Origin: Candidatus Rifleibacteriota bacterium
Lineage (GTDB): Bacteria > Riflebacteria > Ozemobacteria > Ozemobacterales > Ozemobacteraceae
NCBI GenBank assembly: GCA_017526725.1
Contig: JAFXRA010000042.1
Location: 1 to 16,116, forward strand
Length of the DNA: 16,116 nucleotides
Reading direction: 5' to 3'
Of the stretch, positions 2,585 to 9,226 are shown piece by piece. The position numbers were made by a program, and so were the translations under genes. The stretch's first letter is position 1. Every line of letters starts with the position of its first letter. The notes under the pieces were generated by a model. The model saw only the letters and a list, made by a program, of their open reading frames with translations, did no database searches and had not been told where the DNA came from.

Positions 2585-2605
2585 CTCAGTTTTCAGTTCT
2601 CAGTT
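2585..2605. repeat. Heptad tandem repeat (YTCAGTT x3)
   Basis: Three consecutive 7-base units CTCAGTT (2585-2591), TTCAGTT (2592-2598) and CTCAGTT (2599-2605). The first unit contains the stop codon of the helicase-nuclease on the minus strand (TCA at 2586-2588, read as TGA), and the repeat encodes its last residues. Confidence 0.75.
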
Positions 2606-5600
2606 TTCCGATTTCATTCCTATGGCAGAGATTAATATATGGGCAGTCAGCACATCCGTCAGACTCTCTAGCCGCCCAAAGATGCTCTTTGCGTATTTCA
2701 TCAACAATTTTGGCAGCTTCTTCTTCAAAATTAGTAAGATTTGGTTCTATTTCCCTTAAATCCAAACCTTTAGGATTAAGGTAAGCTATATAGGTATTGG
2801 CAAAGTTCAAGCAGCCCATTTGCCCGATAACACCGCGGCTGGCAGCAATTCTATAAAGGGCGAGCTGGCGCTTATAACCTTCGTGAGCTTCAGCAGAATA
2901 TTCTCTAGTCTTAAAGTCTATAATTCTGATGTTATTGCCTTCTTCCAAGTCAACACGGTCTACAAAACCTCTTATAAAGAAAGGTTTACCATTGTTTTTT
3001 CCATCAAATTTCACGTTGACTTCGGCTTCAAAAAGCCAGGGGTTGGTTTTGCTTAAATCGGATTCAATATAACGATTTAGGAGAGTCATGGTCTTAGATT
3101 TTAAAACCTTTTTAAAATCCCCCTGTCTGCTGACGCAGACATCCCCCTTTACTAAAGGGGGTATTGTAGGAGTTTCAATAGAATCATCGTTATTGTTCTT
3201 AAAATCCCCCAGTCTGCTATAGCAGACATCCCCCTTTACGAAAGGGGGTATTGTAGGAGTTTCAATAGAATCATCGTTATTATTCTCTGAATTACCCTGT
3301 TCGCTTAATTCTAAGTCTATTGAAGACAAAGAACTGCTCTTTAGGTAACAAGGAATGAGCTTGTCTAAGCATGATTCGATTAAATCCAAAGCTTCTTTTT
3401 CTGACTTCAGCTCATGACCGTCATTTTCATGGAAAAGCCTGATAGTCTCGTGTGCAAGCTTTCCAACCAGAGTCTGCACCTGTTCAAGTCTTTCGTCAAA
3501 AGAACCTACATGAACGTTATTAAAATAATATTTTCTTGGGCAGAGTTTAAAGGTTGCCAATTCCTGCAGAGAAAAGATGTCTTTGTTATTATCTTCAACA
3601 GCAGAAACAGCTTTCGCCCTTTCCTCTAAAAAACTGCCAATAGACCTGATACTCTTTTCAAGCATTTCAATATCTGCTTTGGGAGCCTGTTTTTCAAGCT
3701 TGTCTACTAATTCTGCTCTGCCCGATTTCAGCCATTCATTCAATAATTCAGGCCATTCTTCCAATGGTTTTATTTCACCCAGATTAGGATGTTCCTTTAA
3801 GATATCTACTATATGGCAAACAGGCTCAATAATAGGTTTACAAGGGTCTTCTGGCGGCAAGCCTGCTTTCTGGGTTCCAGTAATTACCAAAAGATTTTCT
3901 GCTCTAGTAAAACCAACATAAAGCTTTCTAAAATCTTCTGAGGCAGATTCATTGCGATCTATCTGTTTATAGGCTTCAATTATTGGATTTATCGCATCTT
4001 TATTACTGGAATTCTTTTCGTTAACAATTAACCCAAACTGGTCATCATAGACTATTTTTTCATTGAATCTATAAGGTCTGCCTTTTAAGAACGGCATTAT
4101 GACTATTGGAAATTCGAGACCTTTAGACTTGTGAATAGTCATTATTTTGACGGCATCGCCTTCTTCTAAACCTAAACCAGCTTCATCTTCATCTATATCT
4201 GCTACTCTTGTTCTTTCAACATGATTAAGAAAATCTCTTAGAGAAGTGAACACGCCGTTCTGTTCAAAATCTCGGACTATGCCTAGAAATTTAGCTATGT
4301 TATTGTTGATTCTCTTGGTTTTAAGCTCAGAATCTAAAGTAGCTGAGTATTCCAAGAAACCGGCCTGTTCTATTATAGTATGGCAGAGATTTACTAATCC
4401 AGGCTTATTTGCTCTTTCCTTGATACTTATATAGAGATTTCTGAAATTTACAGCTTCTTCGGGCAAATCTTCCTCTTTCATAGCAAGAATTCTTGGCAAA
4501 AGCCTGATCTTCTCGAACTTTCCTTCTAAAGAAAGCTTAACCAAATCAGAATCATTTAATCCATACAAAGGCCCCGTAAGTAGCTTAACAACAGAATAGT
4601 CGTCGTCTGGCTGAACGAGAAGCTTTAAGAAAGAAAGAATATCTTCTATTTCACTGCGCTCGTAAAGACCGAAACCGCCTGAAATGACATATGGAATCTG
4701 AAGTTCTGCCATTGCGTCTTCAAAATTAATTGGCAGATTCTTAACAGAATTAAGAATTATGGCAATATCACCATAGCAGATCTGGCGCGGTTCCCCTTTA
4801 TTCTTACGGTCAGGAATAGTCATACCAGAAGCAACAATATCATGTATAAACTGAACAATATGTTTAGAAGCCAGGTTTGTATTCATATCATCTGGCGATA
4901 AAAGACAGCTTACCGCTGGATATCTTGGCGAACTACCCCTCTGAGCCTGCTGCTTAACAAACATTTTTCCAACATCGCCGCCCTTTTCCAAAAAAGAGTC
5001 GGCAAAGTCTATTATTTCTGAATAAGACCTGAAATTGTCTTTCAAAATAATATCTTTATCTGAAACAAAGTTTCTGAAAGTATCTATTTTTGCGCCTTGA
5101 AACCTGTAAATACTCTGCTTTTCATCACCAACAACACAAATCTGACTTTCGCGGTCACGGCAGAAATCTTCAACGATGCCAAGCTGATTAGGGTTATTGT
5201 CCTGGAATTCATCAATCAGAAACACCCTTCTATCAGGTGTTACACCGTTTTCTCGCATATATTGAATCAAATTTTTGCTTTTAATAAGTATTTCATCAAA
5301 ATCAAGCAGATTGCGCTTTTCTAACTCTTCCATATAAAGAGTATAGAATTGGAAAAGCCATTCCAAGGTTTTATGCTCCAATTCTGTTCCTCGAGAATTC
5401 AGTTCTTGTTTAGCTTTTCTATAGAATTCACCAGGACCTAGAAGATATCTTCTGATTTTACTTAAAGCCAAAGGGAATTTAGCAATAAGCTTAGCAGCGA
5501 TATCAGCACCTAAGGCATTTTCACCATTTATAATTTTTTCACCATACTGTTCAGCAAATTTGTCTGCTAAGTCCAGCATCAATATTTCTCTAGTATTTTC

Positions 5601-5969
5601 GTCGATAACGGCAACAGAACTGTCTATACCCGCTCCAAAAGGATCTTGTTTCAAAAACCTTGATAAAAAAGAATGAAAAGTGGCCACTTCCATTTTTCTT
5701 AAAACAGATGGAAGGATCTTTCGCTTTTCAGTAAGTCTGTCTTTCATTTCAGAAGCGGCTTTTGTTGTGTAGGTTATAGCAACAAGTTCTTCTGGTTTTA
5801 TTCCTTGTTTTAACAGAGCATCTATTCGTCTTGTTAAAACTTCTGTCTTTCCAGAACCTGCACCAGCAGATATTCTTAATCGTCCCTTTGGAGGAAAAGA
5901 AACTGCCTCGGCTTGTTCCTGAGTAAGCCCATCTGTCAATAACCTTAGTATATTTTTCAAATTTGTCAT
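2586..5969 (-). CDS. UvrD-type helicase / RecB-type nuclease, second subunit (AddA/AdnB-like)
   Basis: 1127 aa. The superfamily 1A motor has every motif intact: Walker A SAGAGSGKT (34-42), TFHSF (97-101), DEFQD Walker B (253-257), GDEKQSIYRFQGA (281-293), DNFRS (311-315), VKIMTIHKSKGLEFP (607-621) and YVGFTRAENL (684-693). The C-terminal PD-(D/E)XK nuclease shows His840 (GKLAHE), Asp1004 (GFVDRVD), Asp1018 and Lys1020 (IIDFKT) and the QLALY motif (1035-1039). Cys810 (CPRKYYF) plus Cys1106, Cys1109 and Cys1115 (C-x2-C-x5-C) fit the Fe-S clasp of AddB/Cas4-type nucleases. The start ATG overlaps the upstream stop (ATGA) with GAGGAGG ten bases before it. Residues 896-953 are two tandem 29-residue units encoded by a palindromic DNA repeat, lying between His840 and the catalytic acids; they look like an insertion and are not part of the fold. 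Likely role: ATP-driven unwinding and resection of DNA ends for recombination, as a heterodimer with its neighbour. Confidence 0.92.
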   Translation of the reverse strand: MTNLKNILRLLTDGLTQEQAEAVSFPPKGRLRISAGAGSGKTEVLTRRIDALLKQGIKPEELVAITYTTKAASEMKDRLTEKRKILPSVLRKMEVATFHSFLSRFLKQDPFGAGIDSSVAVIDENTREILMLDLADKFAEQYGEKIINGENALGADIAAKLIAKFPLALSKIRRYLLGPGEFYRKAKQELNSRGTELEHKTLEWLFQFYTLYMEELEKRNLLDFDEILIKSKNLIQYMRENGVTPDRRVFLIDEFQDNNPNQLGIVEDFCRDRESQICVVGDEKQSIYRFQGAKIDTFRNFVSDKDIILKDNFRSYSEIIDFADSFLEKGGDVGKMFVKQQAQRGSSPRYPAVSCLLSPDDMNTNLASKHIVQFIHDIVASGMTIPDRKNKGEPRQICYGDIAIILNSVKNLPINFEDAMAELQIPYVISGGFGLYERSEIEDILSFLKLLVQPDDDYSVVKLLTGPLYGLNDSDLVKLSLEGKFEKIRLLPRILAMKEEDLPEEAVNFRNLYISIKERANKPGLVNLCHTIIEQAGFLEYSATLDSELKTKRINNNIAKFLGIVRDFEQNGVFTSLRDFLNHVERTRVADIDEDEAGLGLEEGDAVKIMTIHKSKGLEFPIVIMPFLKGRPYRFNEKIVYDDQFGLIVNEKNSSNKDAINPIIEAYKQIDRNESASEDFRKLYVGFTRAENLLVITGTQKAGLPPEDPCKPIIEPVCHIVDILKEHPNLGEIKPLEEWPELLNEWLKSGRAELVDKLEKQAPKADIEMLEKSIRSIGSFLEERAKAVSAVEDNNKDIFSLQELATFKLCPRKYYFNNVHVGSFDERLEQVQTLVGKLAHETIRLFHENDGHELKSEKEALDLIESCLDKLIPCYLKSSSLSSIDLELSEQGNSENNNDDSIETPTIPPFVKGDVCYSRLGDFKNNNDDSIETPTIPPLVKGDVCVSRQGDFKKVLKSKTMTLLNRYIESDLSKTNPWLFEAEVNVKFDGKNNGKPFFIRGFVDRVDLEEGNNIRIIDFKTREYSAEAHEGYKRQLALYRIAASRGVIGQMGCLNFANTYIAYLNPKGLDLREIEPNLTNFEEEAAKIVDEIRKEHLWAARESDGCADCPYINLCHRNEIGKLRTEN
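3112..3198. repeat. 87-base palindromic repeat, unit 1 (in frame)
   Basis: Contains two hairpins: GTCTGC-TGAC-GCAGAC (3125-3140) and CCCCCTTTA-C-TAAAGGGGG (3143-3161, nine-base arms). Read on the minus strand it encodes residues 925-953 of the helicase-nuclease. It differs from unit 2 at 6 of 87 positions: three fall in the first hairpin loop, one in the centre of the second, one between elements and one in the tail; the shared arms are identical. Confidence 0.9.
3199..3285. repeat. 87-base palindromic repeat, unit 2 (in frame)
   Basis: Immediately adjoins unit 1 with the same layout. Its first palindrome GTCTGCTATAGCAGAC (3212-3227) is perfect over 16 bases and the second is CCCCCTTT-ACG-AAAGGGGG (3230-3248). 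It encodes residues 896-924, differing from the other unit at three residues (Phe/Leu, Tyr/Val, Leu/Gln). The length of 29 codons keeps the frame open. Confidence 0.9.
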
Positions 5970-8900
5970 TGTTCAGCGGCCTCCTCTTTATCCTGCTGTT
6001 TCTTTAGCAGTTCCAAACCAACCTGACAGAACGTTGAAAATTCGCAGCCTTCTTTCGTCAAACAGCTTTTAGCGTTTTCATTAGAAGAAGGTAGACATTC
6101 AAAGGTCTTATCTGTTTTTATTTTGTTTATCAGTTCTATTATTCTAGCTTCAAAGCTTTTCAAATCGTCATTAGAAACTTCAGCCCCATAACAGGGTCCA
6201 CAGCCGAAATTCAATGCTGCTGACTTTTGAAAACCGGCTTTCATTCCCTTATAAGCCTTCTTGTAGGCATCTGTCATTACATACATGGTCGCTGATGAAA
6301 TATTTTTGTAATTCATACTGCGGCAAGCCAATATATATATTGGAAGCTGCATTTCGAGCTGTTCTTCTACTAAACCAGACTTAGGAAAAGCCTTTTCATA
6401 TATCTTTTCACTGTTAGGAACTCCACTTTTTGAAGTTTTATAGTCAATAATCTGAATACTATCATTGTCTATTAAAGCAATTCTGTCGAATCTACCTTTG
6501 ATTCTGCTTCCTGCCAATTCAAAAGAGAAAGGCTTTTCAACCCCTTTTGTATGGCGGCATGGGAACTGCTCATTTTTATAAACAGCATCTCTATAAATAG
6601 GCAAAGCATTTTTTATCAGATTTGCATGTTTGTGTCTTTCGAAGAAAGGAATAACTTCAAGCATGGGAGCAGCAAACTTTTCAAAGAGTTCCATCAAATC
6701 TTCATCTGTAGGTTCCTTGACTAATTCCCATATAGAACCTGGTTTATGAAGTTCCTCTAAAATTTTGTGATAAGCATTACCTACAATAAAGTAATCGCTG
6801 TTGTTTTCTAATGGATTAGCTATCCCCAAAAGGTTTTTAAAGAAGAATTTTCTAGGGCAATCCAGATAGTTTTTGAGAGATGTTGCAGAAAAGCTGAAAT
6901 CATCCGGTAGCTCAACCCTGTCATGCTTTGCTTTATTGAAGATTCTTGGTCTGATTCCATGAATGGCATATTCCGGCGGAATCTGCTTTTCAACTTCCTG
7001 CAGAGTCGGTTCCATTGCTAGAAGTTCATCTTGATTCAGACCGGTAATTACTGTTCGGAACTCGCTAAGTGTCAAAATCTTATCATCTTTTTCCAACTCA
7101 TCTGGTTTAATGCCCATCTCATAAAAGAACGGCGCCGGAGTTGCAGGGTCAGTTCCAAGTCTCATAGGAACAGTCATAATTAACCCTTCTTTGGCCCTTG
7201 TAATAGCTACAAAAAACAGGCGACGTTCTTCTTCAAGCTGTTCTTCATCGCTATTGGGGTAAGGATTAAAAAAGCTGATTTCTCTGTTCTTGGAATTCAG
7301 ATAGTTTTTTATTTTTTCTATAGCGGCTGTTCCTAATAAAATGTTTTCTCTTAAGTTCACAGGAAACTGCCCTTCGCAAAGCCCGCTTATTACTGTTAAC
7401 GGGAATTCCAACCCCTTAGACTGGTGAACAGTCATTATTTTAACGGCATTTTCATCTATAGTTTCAGATAATTCAATATTTAATGCGTAATAATTTATCC
7501 ATTCTTCTAATTCAGGCAGTAAATCTGCAATCAGAGGTCTTCTATTGAATGTATGAAGAAAAACTTCAGAATAATCAGAAAGCATATTCCTAAGATGCAG
7601 AATATTTCTTGAAGTTGTCTCGGAAGCATTTTGCAAAAGCGGCAAAACCGAAGATACCGCAGCAGATATAATTGCACTTATTTCTTCACTGCTTTTCGAT
7701 TCAAGCAGTCTGACAACTTTTACAAATTCTTTAGCCTTATTTTGATTAGCTTCATCTGTTTCTGGCAACTCAGAAAACTGATTATCCTCTATTAATTTGA
7801 GAATATTGGAAATCTTGCCGGTATTGTTTGCAATTTCCGAAATGATTGCCTGAGTCCAAAGAGGATTCAGACCGAAAGCAGGGGAAAGAAAAGCTGTCTG
7901 CAAAGCAGATTCCTTCGAATCTTCTTCAGTTGCTCCAGCAATTTTAAGCAGAGAAACAAGAGTAATTATTTCTTCTGCTTTAAAAAACTTCATGTCTTCA
8001 GCTATTTGATAAGGAATGTGCAGAGTTTGCAGACTCTCGGCCAGTAAATCAATCTGATAGTTATTCCTAACCAAAATAGCAACATCAGAAGGCTTATACT
8101 TTTTGCCTTTATTGCCATAAATCAGATAATTGGCTATTTGACGCCCTACTACCCTAGCCTCTTCAATTTCGTTTTTAACCTTATAATACTTTATAAAGCC
8201 GTCTTCCAGACTATTAGGGTTGAGAAGACCGTCTGTAGTCAGTTTTTCTGCCCAATTCAGTCTTGTTGCAGACTTTACAATACTTTTTGCAGAACGATAA
8301 TTCTGACTTAAAGGAAAAACACTGGCCTTGTATTTCTGCTTAAACCTACCTTTAGAAGTCATCATTGAAGGGTCAGCCCCTCTGAATCTGTAAATACTCT
8401 GTCGAGGATCCCCTATTACAGCTGTTTTTATATCCGAATCCTCGCCCTTTAATAAAGTAAGGAGCAGAAACTGTGCCGGGTCTGTATCCTGAAACTCATC
8501 TACAAGAATAACTTTGTATCTTTTTCTATAGATTGCAGCTATTCTAGGATTTTTTAAAACCTTTATGGAAAGCGCTATTAAATCCCTGTAATCCAGGTAG
8601 TTGTCTTTTATTCGCTCTTTTTCGTATTGTTTATATATGTTCAGCAGTTCATAACATCTGTTCTGAGTTTTCTTATTCAGATCAGGAGTGTTTTTAATCG
8701 CATCTTCAAATTCTTCAGGAGTAACCAGATTAGATTTTAAAATTCCTATTAAAGTGGAAGCCTCTTGCTGAAAACCTCTTTTATTCAAAACTTTTCCATA
8801 TTCAGGAAAAGCCAAAGGGTCTAATTTTCGGCAGATAAAGCTCATCAACAAAGATTCTTTAAAAGCATTAAGAAGTTTAAAATCTGGCGCAACACCGACT

Positions 8901-9226
8901 TCATAGTATTGTTCCCTTAAAATTCTTGCACAAAAAGAATGGAAAGTCGATATCCAGCATTGGTCAAAACTTTGCGGGAAATATTCCAAAACTCTTTGTC
9001 TTAACTCTGATGCGGCTTTATCGGAAAAAGTCAGCGCAAGTATTTCTTTTAATCTGACGCCTTTTTCCAACTGTTTTGCAATTAAAACAGAGATAGTTCT
9101 TGTTTTGCCAGTGCCTGGACCTGCAACAACCAAAGAATTTTTATGGAATTTTTTTATTATTTCTTTCTGTTGGTCATTTAATCTGTCAAAATCATTTTTT
9201 AATAATTCAGATACACCAATACTCAT
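5966..9226 (-). CDS. UvrD-type helicase / RecB-type nuclease, first subunit (AddB/AdnA position)
   Basis: 1086 aa. The motor motifs are complete: AGPGTGKT (35-42), STFHSF (93-98), DEFQD (243-247), GDPRQSIYRFRGAD (272-285), QNYRS (308-312), VKIMTVHQSKGLEFP (595-609) and FFVAITRAKE (671-680). The nuclease part has His820 (GNAYHKILEE), Asp914 (GRFDRI), Asp928 and Lys930 (IIDYKT) and a QLPIY motif (960-964). Possible Fe-S ligands are Cys790 (CPRKFFF) and Cys1055, Cys1061, Cys1067, spaced x5/x5 and not the usual x2/x5. It overlaps the second helicase-nuclease by 4 bases, so the two are co-translated and probably form one complex. In AddAB the AddB motor is inactive; here nothing looks broken, closer to mycobacterial AdnAB, in which both chains carry motor and nuclease modules. 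Assignment to the end-resection family is firm; which named subunit it corresponds to is not, so no symbol is given. Confidence 0.92.
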   Translation of the reverse strand: MSIGVSELLKNDFDRLNDQQKEIIKKFHKNSLVVAGPGTGKTRTISVLIAKQLEKGVRLKEILALTFSDKAASELRQRVLEYFPQSFDQCWISTFHSFCARILREQYYEVGVAPDFKLLNAFKESLLMSFICRKLDPLAFPEYGKVLNKRGFQQEASTLIGILKSNLVTPEEFEDAIKNTPDLNKKTQNRCYELLNIYKQYEKERIKDNYLDYRDLIALSIKVLKNPRIAAIYRKRYKVILVDEFQDTDPAQFLLLTLLKGEDSDIKTAVIGDPRQSIYRFRGADPSMMTSKGRFKQKYKASVFPLSQNYRSAKSIVKSATRLNWAEKLTTDGLLNPNSLEDGFIKYYKVKNEIEEARVVGRQIANYLIYGNKGKKYKPSDVAILVRNNYQIDLLAESLQTLHIPYQIAEDMKFFKAEEIITLVSLLKIAGATEEDSKESALQTAFLSPAFGLNPLWTQAIISEIANNTGKISNILKLIEDNQFSELPETDEANQNKAKEFVKVVRLLESKSSEEISAIISAAVSSVLPLLQNASETTSRNILHLRNMLSDYSEVFLHTFNRRPLIADLLPELEEWINYYALNIELSETIDENAVKIMTVHQSKGLEFPLTVISGLCEGQFPVNLRENILLGTAAIEKIKNYLNSKNREISFFNPYPNSDEEQLEEERRLFFVAITRAKEGLIMTVPMRLGTDPATPAPFFYEMGIKPDELEKDDKILTLSEFRTVITGLNQDELLAMEPTLQEVEKQIPPEYAIHGIRPRIFNKAKHDRVELPDDFSFSATSLKNYLDCPRKFFFKNLLGIANPLENNSDYFIVGNAYHKILEELHKPGSIWELVKEPTDEDLMELFEKFAAPMLEVIPFFERHKHANLIKNALPIYRDAVYKNEQFPCRHTKGVEKPFSFELAGSRIKGRFDRIALIDNDSIQIIDYKTSKSGVPNSEKIYEKAFPKSGLVEEQLEMQLPIYILACRSMNYKNISSATMYVMTDAYKKAYKGMKAGFQKSAALNFGCGPCYGAEVSNDDLKSFEARIIELINKIKTDKTFECLPSSNENAKSCLTKEGCEFSTFCQVGLELLKKQQDKEEAAEQ
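5980..5986 (-). promoter_or_regulatory. Ribosome binding site of the second helicase-nuclease
   Basis: GAGGAGG on the minus strand, ten bases before the ATG at 5969 and inside the last codons of the upstream gene. Together with the ATGA overlap it supports translational coupling of the two subunits. Confidence 0.75.

Follow-up and report, generated by a model that had tools for sequence, protein, structure and literature searches.

Here we describe a short palindromic repeat that stands, in two tandem copies and in frame, within a helicase-nuclease gene of a Riflebacteria genome. With a probability that we put at roughly 85%, what was inserted belongs to a dispersed, non-autonomous and lineage-specific family of palindromic repeats of the REP/BIME/RPE kind, and has been doubled in the nuclease gene. 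Several layers of evidence carry this reading: the family is dispersed in relatives of the source organism, its stems covary among copies, it is inserted in frame in proteins whose homologues lack it, the nuclease linkers differ by steps of 29 residues, and the inserted stretch is modelled with very low pLDDT.

Two tandem units in a helicase-nuclease gene

The window, i.e., the whole stretch of 16,116 nucleotides that was analysed, contains on its minus strand an intact ORF of 1127 aa (2586-5969) for a UvrD/PcrA-type helicase with a C-terminal PD-(D/E)XK nuclease, AddA-like in its make-up and matching the Pfam families UvrD-helicase, UvrD_C and PDDEXK_1. H840, D1018 and K1020, as well as four cysteines (C810, C1106, C1109 and C1115), are invariant across 30 nuclease homologues, and their presumed roles in the enzyme are those known for the family. 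The adjoining gene (5966-9226) has the same make-up, and its end falls inside the start of the nuclease gene with a 4-nt overlap; together the two look like an AddAB-like pair, the PD-(D/E)XK domain being terminal in both. No copy of the repeat was found in this second gene. A 14-nt repeat of 2.8 copies (2570-2608) spans the 3′ end of the nuclease gene. The nearest homologues of the protein that bear a name (P0008 and P0014) belong to Candidatus Riflebacteria, and the four nearest genomes, G019, G020, G021 and G022, encode nucleases 83%, 92%, 78% and 80% identical to that of the window, respectively. In a contig search for relatives of the nuclease, the matches listed were mostly unrelated helicases, together with one Riflebacteria-related locus (L001); 11 loci of viral contigs carry relatives, with identities of at most 28%.

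Two direct copies of 87 nt (3109-3195 and 3196-3282) follow each other in this gene. They are 92% identical and are read in frame as 29 codons each, at about residues 896-953, and TRF places the array at 3112-3286 (period 87, 2.0 copies, indels 0). The preliminary description, made from the sequence alone, had already recognized these adjacent 87-base units in an open helicase-nuclease frame, and the pair stands; its coordinates do not entirely, given that residues 896-953 correspond by arithmetic from the ORF to 3111-3284, one base away from the 3112-3285 proposed.

Each unit harbors a palindromic element on the plus strand, antisense to the gene: copy 1 (3114-3164) reads as IPPLVKGDVCVSRQGDF and copy 2 (3201-3251) as IPPFVKGDVCYSRLGDF. 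They score 78.2 and 78.1 bits with the covariance model introduced below, although both are themselves among the 25 copies from which that model was built. In each element a variable hairpin, predicted by folding and with a helix that covaries between family copies (3125-3140, GTCTGC..GCAGAC, in copy 1; 3212-3227 in copy 2), is followed by a constant one, recovered by folding and pattern search (3143-3161 and 3230-3248), whose arms CCCCCTTT and AAAGGGGG are 3 nt apart; all four lie on the plus strand. The pattern CCCCCTTTNNNAAAGGGGG, with three mismatches or fewer, occurs in the window at 3143 and 3230 only (chance mean 0.05), and 1 of 200 shuffles contained two occurrences. Folding recovers the two hairpins per unit proposed earlier, with z of -4.5 and -3.9 on the coding strand and of -2.6 and -2.8 on the other strand. 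Furthermore, the 191-nt array folded as DNA gives a z of -7.1, none of 200 shuffles being equally stable. It had been remarked that the arms are identical and that four of six differences fall in loops or centres; when the two 51-nt elements are compared, none of the 28 positions in the arms has changed, against 5 of the 23 outside them.

The 87 bases had been taken as the repeat unit. This is correct for the tandem period; the dispersed element itself is rather of ~50 nt, since matches outside the nuclease stop at query position ~50-62 or earlier, and the remainder is gene flank. The period is therefore made of a ~50-nt element plus ~36 nt of flanking gene, and the 36-nt stretch in the gap between the elements (3165-3200, plus strand) is flank that was co-duplicated. 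The possibility that this flank is a dispersed repeat in its own right was rejected: with the G019 gene flank as query in G019-G022, strong matches (E < 0.001) occurred at the G019 and G020 nuclease loci and nowhere beyond the nuclease.

Repeats are prone to assembly error, and an assembly artefact, or else a decayed gene, has to be considered. The two copies differ at several positions, in-frame copies exist at the same site in other assemblies, and the nuclease ORF is open with its motifs retained, all of which make an artefact or a decayed gene most improbable.

A family of palindromes dispersed among relatives

Dispersal was counted in relatives of the source organism, through a survey of 39 members of the phylum. 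Searched as DNA, with 23 of 34-57 candidates scored in each of the nearest genomes, the element gave at least 24, 23, 23 and 26 matches in G019, G020, G021 and G022, respectively; three genomes had one weak match each (E 0.03-0.6), and 32 of the 39 had none. The constant-hairpin pattern was found 47, 38, 16 and 30 times in the same four genomes, counts in which palindromic sites may appear on both strands, and its reversed control 0 times. A covariance model, whose 25 source copies include the two of the window, was applied with an E cut-off of 0.01 and 150 candidates scored per genome; it returned at least 115, 111, 77 and 89 matches in G019-G022, sequence variants of the family included, 11 in G010, one each in G024 and G027, and none in the other 32. 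In the nearest genomes, the suspicion of a dispersed repeat was thus well founded. G010 is a distant Riflebacteria genome, the best of its 11 matches having an E of 1.3e-7. The 'IPPLVKGD'-like strings proposed for predicted proteins of other genomes found no such backing: in two region searches of the protein database, both restricted to candidates chosen by length and by words of 5 residues in common, the matches were 3 of 340 candidates, all of them nuclease homologues already known, and 3 of 40, all of them HydF proteins.

For the analysis of individual copies, 80 regions were fetched around best-scoring ones, and model matches number 145, including the 2 in the window and one pair that overlaps on opposite strands; because of this choice, the sample favours strong copies. 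The family unit, of ~50 nt, consists of AAAATCCCCC, a variable GTC-stem-GAC hairpin and then the constant CCCCCTTT-AAAGGGGG hairpin. In 141 distinct copies aligned, and hence fitted, to the covariance model, 97.8% of stem cells are paired, compared with 84.5% in shuffles; double changes affect 12 of 14 pairs (7.8 in shuffles) and amount to 237 cells, against 55.5 in shuffles (sd 5.6) and 6-26 in slid controls, with no excess of further pair types (24 against 23.0). An unfitted MAFFT alignment of 25 copies gives 97.3% of paired cells and 20 double-change cells against 6.9 in shuffles; neither the pairs with double changes (2 against 2.0) nor the further pair types (5 against 5.0) exceed the shuffles in this smaller set.

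The copies in relatives are mainly intergenic. According to a crude codon-based gene caller, 11 of 143 lie inside predicted genes, though genes cover 74% of those loci. Among the rest, 76 are placed between same-direction, 17 between divergent and 12 between convergent genes, 26 are at edges and 1 runs across the end of a gene; for comparison, neighbouring genes taken all together form 106, 18 and 19 such pairs, respectively. No orientation bias toward gene ends was found over these 143 copies. At least one of the six frames is stop-free in 139 of the 145 copies, and 89 of them are open in the frame that is read in the nuclease (48.7 in shuffles), compared with only 17 in another frame (49.7).

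If a low-complexity linker had simply grown by tandem duplication, without any mobile element, this would agree with the window pair, which is a tandem duplication that includes flank, and with its site, a linker of very low pLDDT. Such growth is refuted for the element itself, the same ~50-nt palindrome being present at many unrelated loci and in other genes, and holds for the second copy; as an account of the whole segment it has hardly any chance of being right.

Strong covariation, together with arms strongly conserved within the nuclease gene (see below), would also be expected of a structured RNA or DNA signal, e.g., a terminator, an mRNA stabiliser or a protein-binding site, which had spread for its function and whose coding copies were incidental. 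Rfam, searched over the whole window, reported nothing at gathering score, and the distribution of copies given above (76/17/12 vs 106/18/19 same-direction, divergent and convergent) denotes no clear preference for convergent or divergent gaps, so a functional signal is a doubtful explanation.

Copies are frequently close to each other: 96 of the 145 matches have another within 150 bp. They form 48 pairs, 40 of them in -+ and 6 in +- orientation, with one ++ pair, that of the window, and one -- pair. In 22 of the 40 -+ pairs the spacer measures 51-54 nt and the core is alike by eye, which makes them BIME-like dimers. The inverted-pair composites (L174, L182, L213, L233 and others) enclose a similar ~53-nt core between two elements, and many of these composites include AGTC-TTCG-GACT, or the complementary sequence, which may fold into a small hairpin of its own. 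By eye, the ends of the element, AAAATCCCCC and GGGGGTATTTT, come close to the inverted repeats that a MITE would have, and no target-site duplication was detectable in 40 composites and 65 other copies.

Further palindromes accompany the family. A second, related one, e.g., AAAACCTCTCTGTC..GACATCTCCCCTT..AAGGGGAG, occurs in the same genomes (L148, L178, L218 and L224), partly paired with the first at short spacing. At L205, L172 and L185, GGATTGC(C/T)ACGC abuts the element and may belong to another dispersed palindrome. A simple form, e.g., CCCCCTTAATCCCCCTTT..AAGGGGG, devoid of the variable hairpin, is present at L299 (Hydrogenedentota) and at L155, L195, L215 and L232 (G019-G022 loci).

Palindromic units, inverted dimers and intergenic preference resemble those of REPs, and the family could thus be a true RAYT-linked one, mobilised by an IS200/IS605-like Y1 transposase. 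Indeed, transposases matching PF01797 (Y1_Tnp) exist, one each, in G020, G021 and G022, three of the four copy-rich genomes. However, G019, which has the most model matches, has no such match, the assemblies being fragmented; no element was found in the fetched flanks of the three genes (up to ~1.5 kb per side, in the same fragmented assemblies); and the GTAG/CGTC end tag is missing as a rule, with GTAG or its complement near the end 7 times over 145 copies and CGTC or its complement never. Given the flanks and the case of G019, no link of a mobiliser to the family was found, and mobilisation by a RAYT seems unlikely. A dispersed, non-autonomous repeat, in turn, would have most of its copies settle between genes, probably moved there by an enzyme, and few of them enter genes in a stop-free frame.

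Copies within genes and a possible constraint on their sequence

In the alignment of the window nuclease with 81 homologues, one unit is present in P0001, P0002, P0003 and P0014. P0004 bears a different, longer insert, P0019 has the linker without the element, P0018 and P0081 do not cover the site, and all other rows are devoid of the element. Distant homologues thus lack the segment, which is not part of the shared fold, as the preliminary description had anticipated. With the dispersal seen in the nearest genomes, neither of the two results named beforehand as refuting that description was obtained. An AlphaFold2 model obtained from a 30-row alignment (mean pLDDT 76.9, pTM 0.58) assigns pLDDT < 50 to residues 878-949 (3123-3338, minus strand), between helices 857-875 and 948-969 of the nuclease domain. 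This agrees with the linker position suggested at the outset, and the insert stretch is likely a disordered loop, part of its low pLDDT being expected because few alignment rows carry the insert.

The length of the linker changes by exactly 29 residues: 96 in the window vs 67 in G020, which has one unit, and 68 in G019 and P0003 vs 39 in P0019, a nuclease 97% identical to P0003. In a tree built without the insert columns, P0019 groups with G019 and P0003 (100/100) and G022 with insert-free rows (95/93). The presence of the insert requires at least three changes on this tree, and a single clade of carriers receives an AU p of 0.051 (0.053 if P0004 is included), so that the data agree with a single gain followed by losses as well as with several gains at the same place; the G022 insert, in particular, may be a separate insertion. 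In the nuclease, the element and its flank would act as a 29-codon tandem unit, gained and lost probably via slippage or recombination between direct repeats, which would yield the series of two units in the window, one in others and one fewer again in P0019.

In the G022 nuclease (L215, beside 2520-2570), the intact element comes, in reading direction, after the decayed remains of part of another tandem copy (p 0.0005, the minimum attainable with the 2000 shuffles used). The idea that an older, decayed unit generally lies right before the insert had no support at the DNA level in the window, G020 and G019 (p 0.48, 0.81 and 0.64); the string QGDFKNNNND of P0002 still hints at one. The linker of P0004 contains a RHCEAMKEPWQS string, and extra DNA lies within the variable hairpin of the L172 copy (2508-2628); nested insertion of other repeats is possible in both.

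The 11 intragenic copies detected with the codon-based caller are not confined to the nuclease, where they occur in G019, G020 and G022. An inverted pair interrupts HydF of G022, between the NKND and VSAKTG strings; one copy is in a cysteine desulfurase-like protein of G021; two are in a PfaA-like carrier-protein region of the same genome, one of them being the simple form without the variable hairpin; two are at the end of an unassigned protein that runs off its contig in G022; and one, less convincing since coding signal is low ahead of it, is in an ORF of G019 for a sugar transferase/glycosyltransferase. None of the 21 HydF genes aligned from other genomes has the insert (22 rows, two of which are the same gene, without the partial row of G007), and G020 and G021 lack it too. 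Of 29 rows aligned with the cysteine desulfurase-like protein, which are family-level homologues of at most ~49% identity, 28 are devoid of its insert; the remaining row, L268, does not align there. P0122 (named Riflebacteria) and P0123, also HydF proteins, carry an insert where G022 has its own. The string KISLSAKADIPLYERG is identical in the three, which are 82-85% identical outside the insert, and the other half of the inverted pair is altered in P0123. The host proteins would tolerate ~17 extra residues per copy and probably retain their function.

A possible constraint on coding copies was assessed from synonymous positions of the nuclease gene. For residues unchanged among the window, G020 and G019, 324 of 813 codons elsewhere in the gene are unchanged (40%), compared with 12 of 12 in the element of unit B (p 1.6e-5), 12 of 13 in that of unit A (p 1.3e-4) and 7 of 9 in the flank (p 0.024); with G022 added, the element values are 10 of 10 (unit B) and 10 of 11 (unit A) vs 210 of 739 (28%) elsewhere. 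The ten most codon-conserved of 952 17-codon windows are all in, or overlap, the insert and its flank. Variable positions among the three species affect 1 of 28 in the arms vs 6 of 23 elsewhere (Fisher 0.037), the latter rising to 9 of 23 with G022 (Fisher 0.003). By plain nucleotide identity in 42-nt windows, on the other hand, the insert does not always come first, its best rank being 1, 6, 1, 1, 23 and 4 of ~1,070 in the six species pairs; for G020-G019, the top-ranked window is non-palindromic flank.

Altogether, these data support a constraint acting at the nucleic-acid level on the nuclease insert, without proving it. Conservation of the flank is not explained by selection on hairpins, and a separate insertion in G022, if so, would inflate the four-species codon tests and render the similarity of G022 trivial; for these two reasons, selection on the fold within the gene stays short of proof. 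The original idea of a maintained fold therefore holds as regards covariation and codon conservation, and goes too far as a proven property of coding copies. Selection, the youth of the insertion, or exchange among copies may each have kept the hairpins. Gene conversion from random genomic copies is made less likely by the types of stem: GTCTGC is in the minority (2 of 39, 4 of 33, 3 of 28 and 3 of 27 parsed copies in G019, G020, G021 and G022, with parsing successful for 129 of 145 copies), yet the five intact copies of the nuclease that were compared all retain it.

Relation to known palindromic elements

Outside the phylum, 8 of 28 genomes searched, drawn from those behind 79 other loci listed in the nuclease contig search, had a match to the model, the best reaching 37.6 bits against up to 79 within the family. 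One of them, the Bacillota MAG G059, contains 45 model matches (best 32 bits). The repeat found there has the arrangement CTCCC(C/T)C-A-GTC..stem..GAC or GCC, then AG, a C-rich arm and a G-rich arm, and a pattern for it matched 7 times among 20 loci fetched, in 6 of them (L300, L301, L304, L307, L315 and L319). Its constant stem is different and 0 of the 7 matches are spanned by an ORF of at least 150 aa; judged on sequence, the likeness with the Riflebacteria family is one of two-hairpin layout. Phage (5 records) and plasmid (3 records) DNA gave short weak matches, none covering 80% of the query, and two DNA patterns of the repeat were found in no viral contig. A literature search, with subscription journals mostly outside its coverage, found no palindromic elements described in Riflebacteria and, for CCCCCTTTA as a palindromic repeat, a match in a Vibrio context only.

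Rickettsia palindromic elements (RPEs), of 105-146 bp, have been described in frame in 19 Rickettsia reading frames, within conserved proteins, and also between genes, and a guanylate kinase with an RPE is active with changed affinity (PMC2229807). In Wolbachia, in-frame WPE-like inserts are reported in addA, addB and priA, one of those in addA being, as the positions are read, at the border of the nuclease domain (PMC4224334). REPs are small palindromes that form inverted dimers, some with conserved spacers, with occasional intragenic copies; in two species of Xanthomonas, recB contains them at roughly corresponding positions, genes for repair are often among their hosts, and their clusters reiterate with flanking DNA (PMC3733652).

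These parallels could be extended much further: the linker of RecB/AddA nucleases would be a recurrent landing site for unrelated palindromic repeats across phyla (Riflebacteria, recB of Xanthomonas, addA of Wolbachia), hairpins here would be under nucleic-acid selection, the 29-codon unit, by switching copy number, would make the repeat a part with which a repair enzyme is tuned, and not junk that it puts up with, and the two-hairpin layout would denote an old superfamily shared with Bacillota. We regard this combined proposal as speculative and rather improbable.

As for the dispersed repeat itself, the presence of another family in a Riflebacteria RecB/AddA-type nuclease, in HydF and in a cysteine desulfurase-like protein suggests a general route of protein growth, and relatives with two units, one, and one fewer constitute a natural series for measuring tolerance, hairpin selection and slippage. 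The pattern of Rickettsia palindromic elements, invoked from the beginning, is recovered here: like RPEs and WPEs, the Riflebacteria family is dispersed, mostly intergenic, and inserted in frame in conserved proteins whose homologues lack it. It differs in its unit of ~50 nt with two side-by-side hairpins and in belonging to another phylum, the likeness being one of description. With REPs and BIMEs it shares small palindromes, inverted dimers, tandem reiteration with flank and intragenic copies, and it departs from them in its two stems per unit, in the lack of the usual GTAG/CGTC tag and in that no linked Y1 transposase was found. The Riflebacteria repeat is, then, a new family of a known kind, that of RPEs, WPEs and intragenic REPs.
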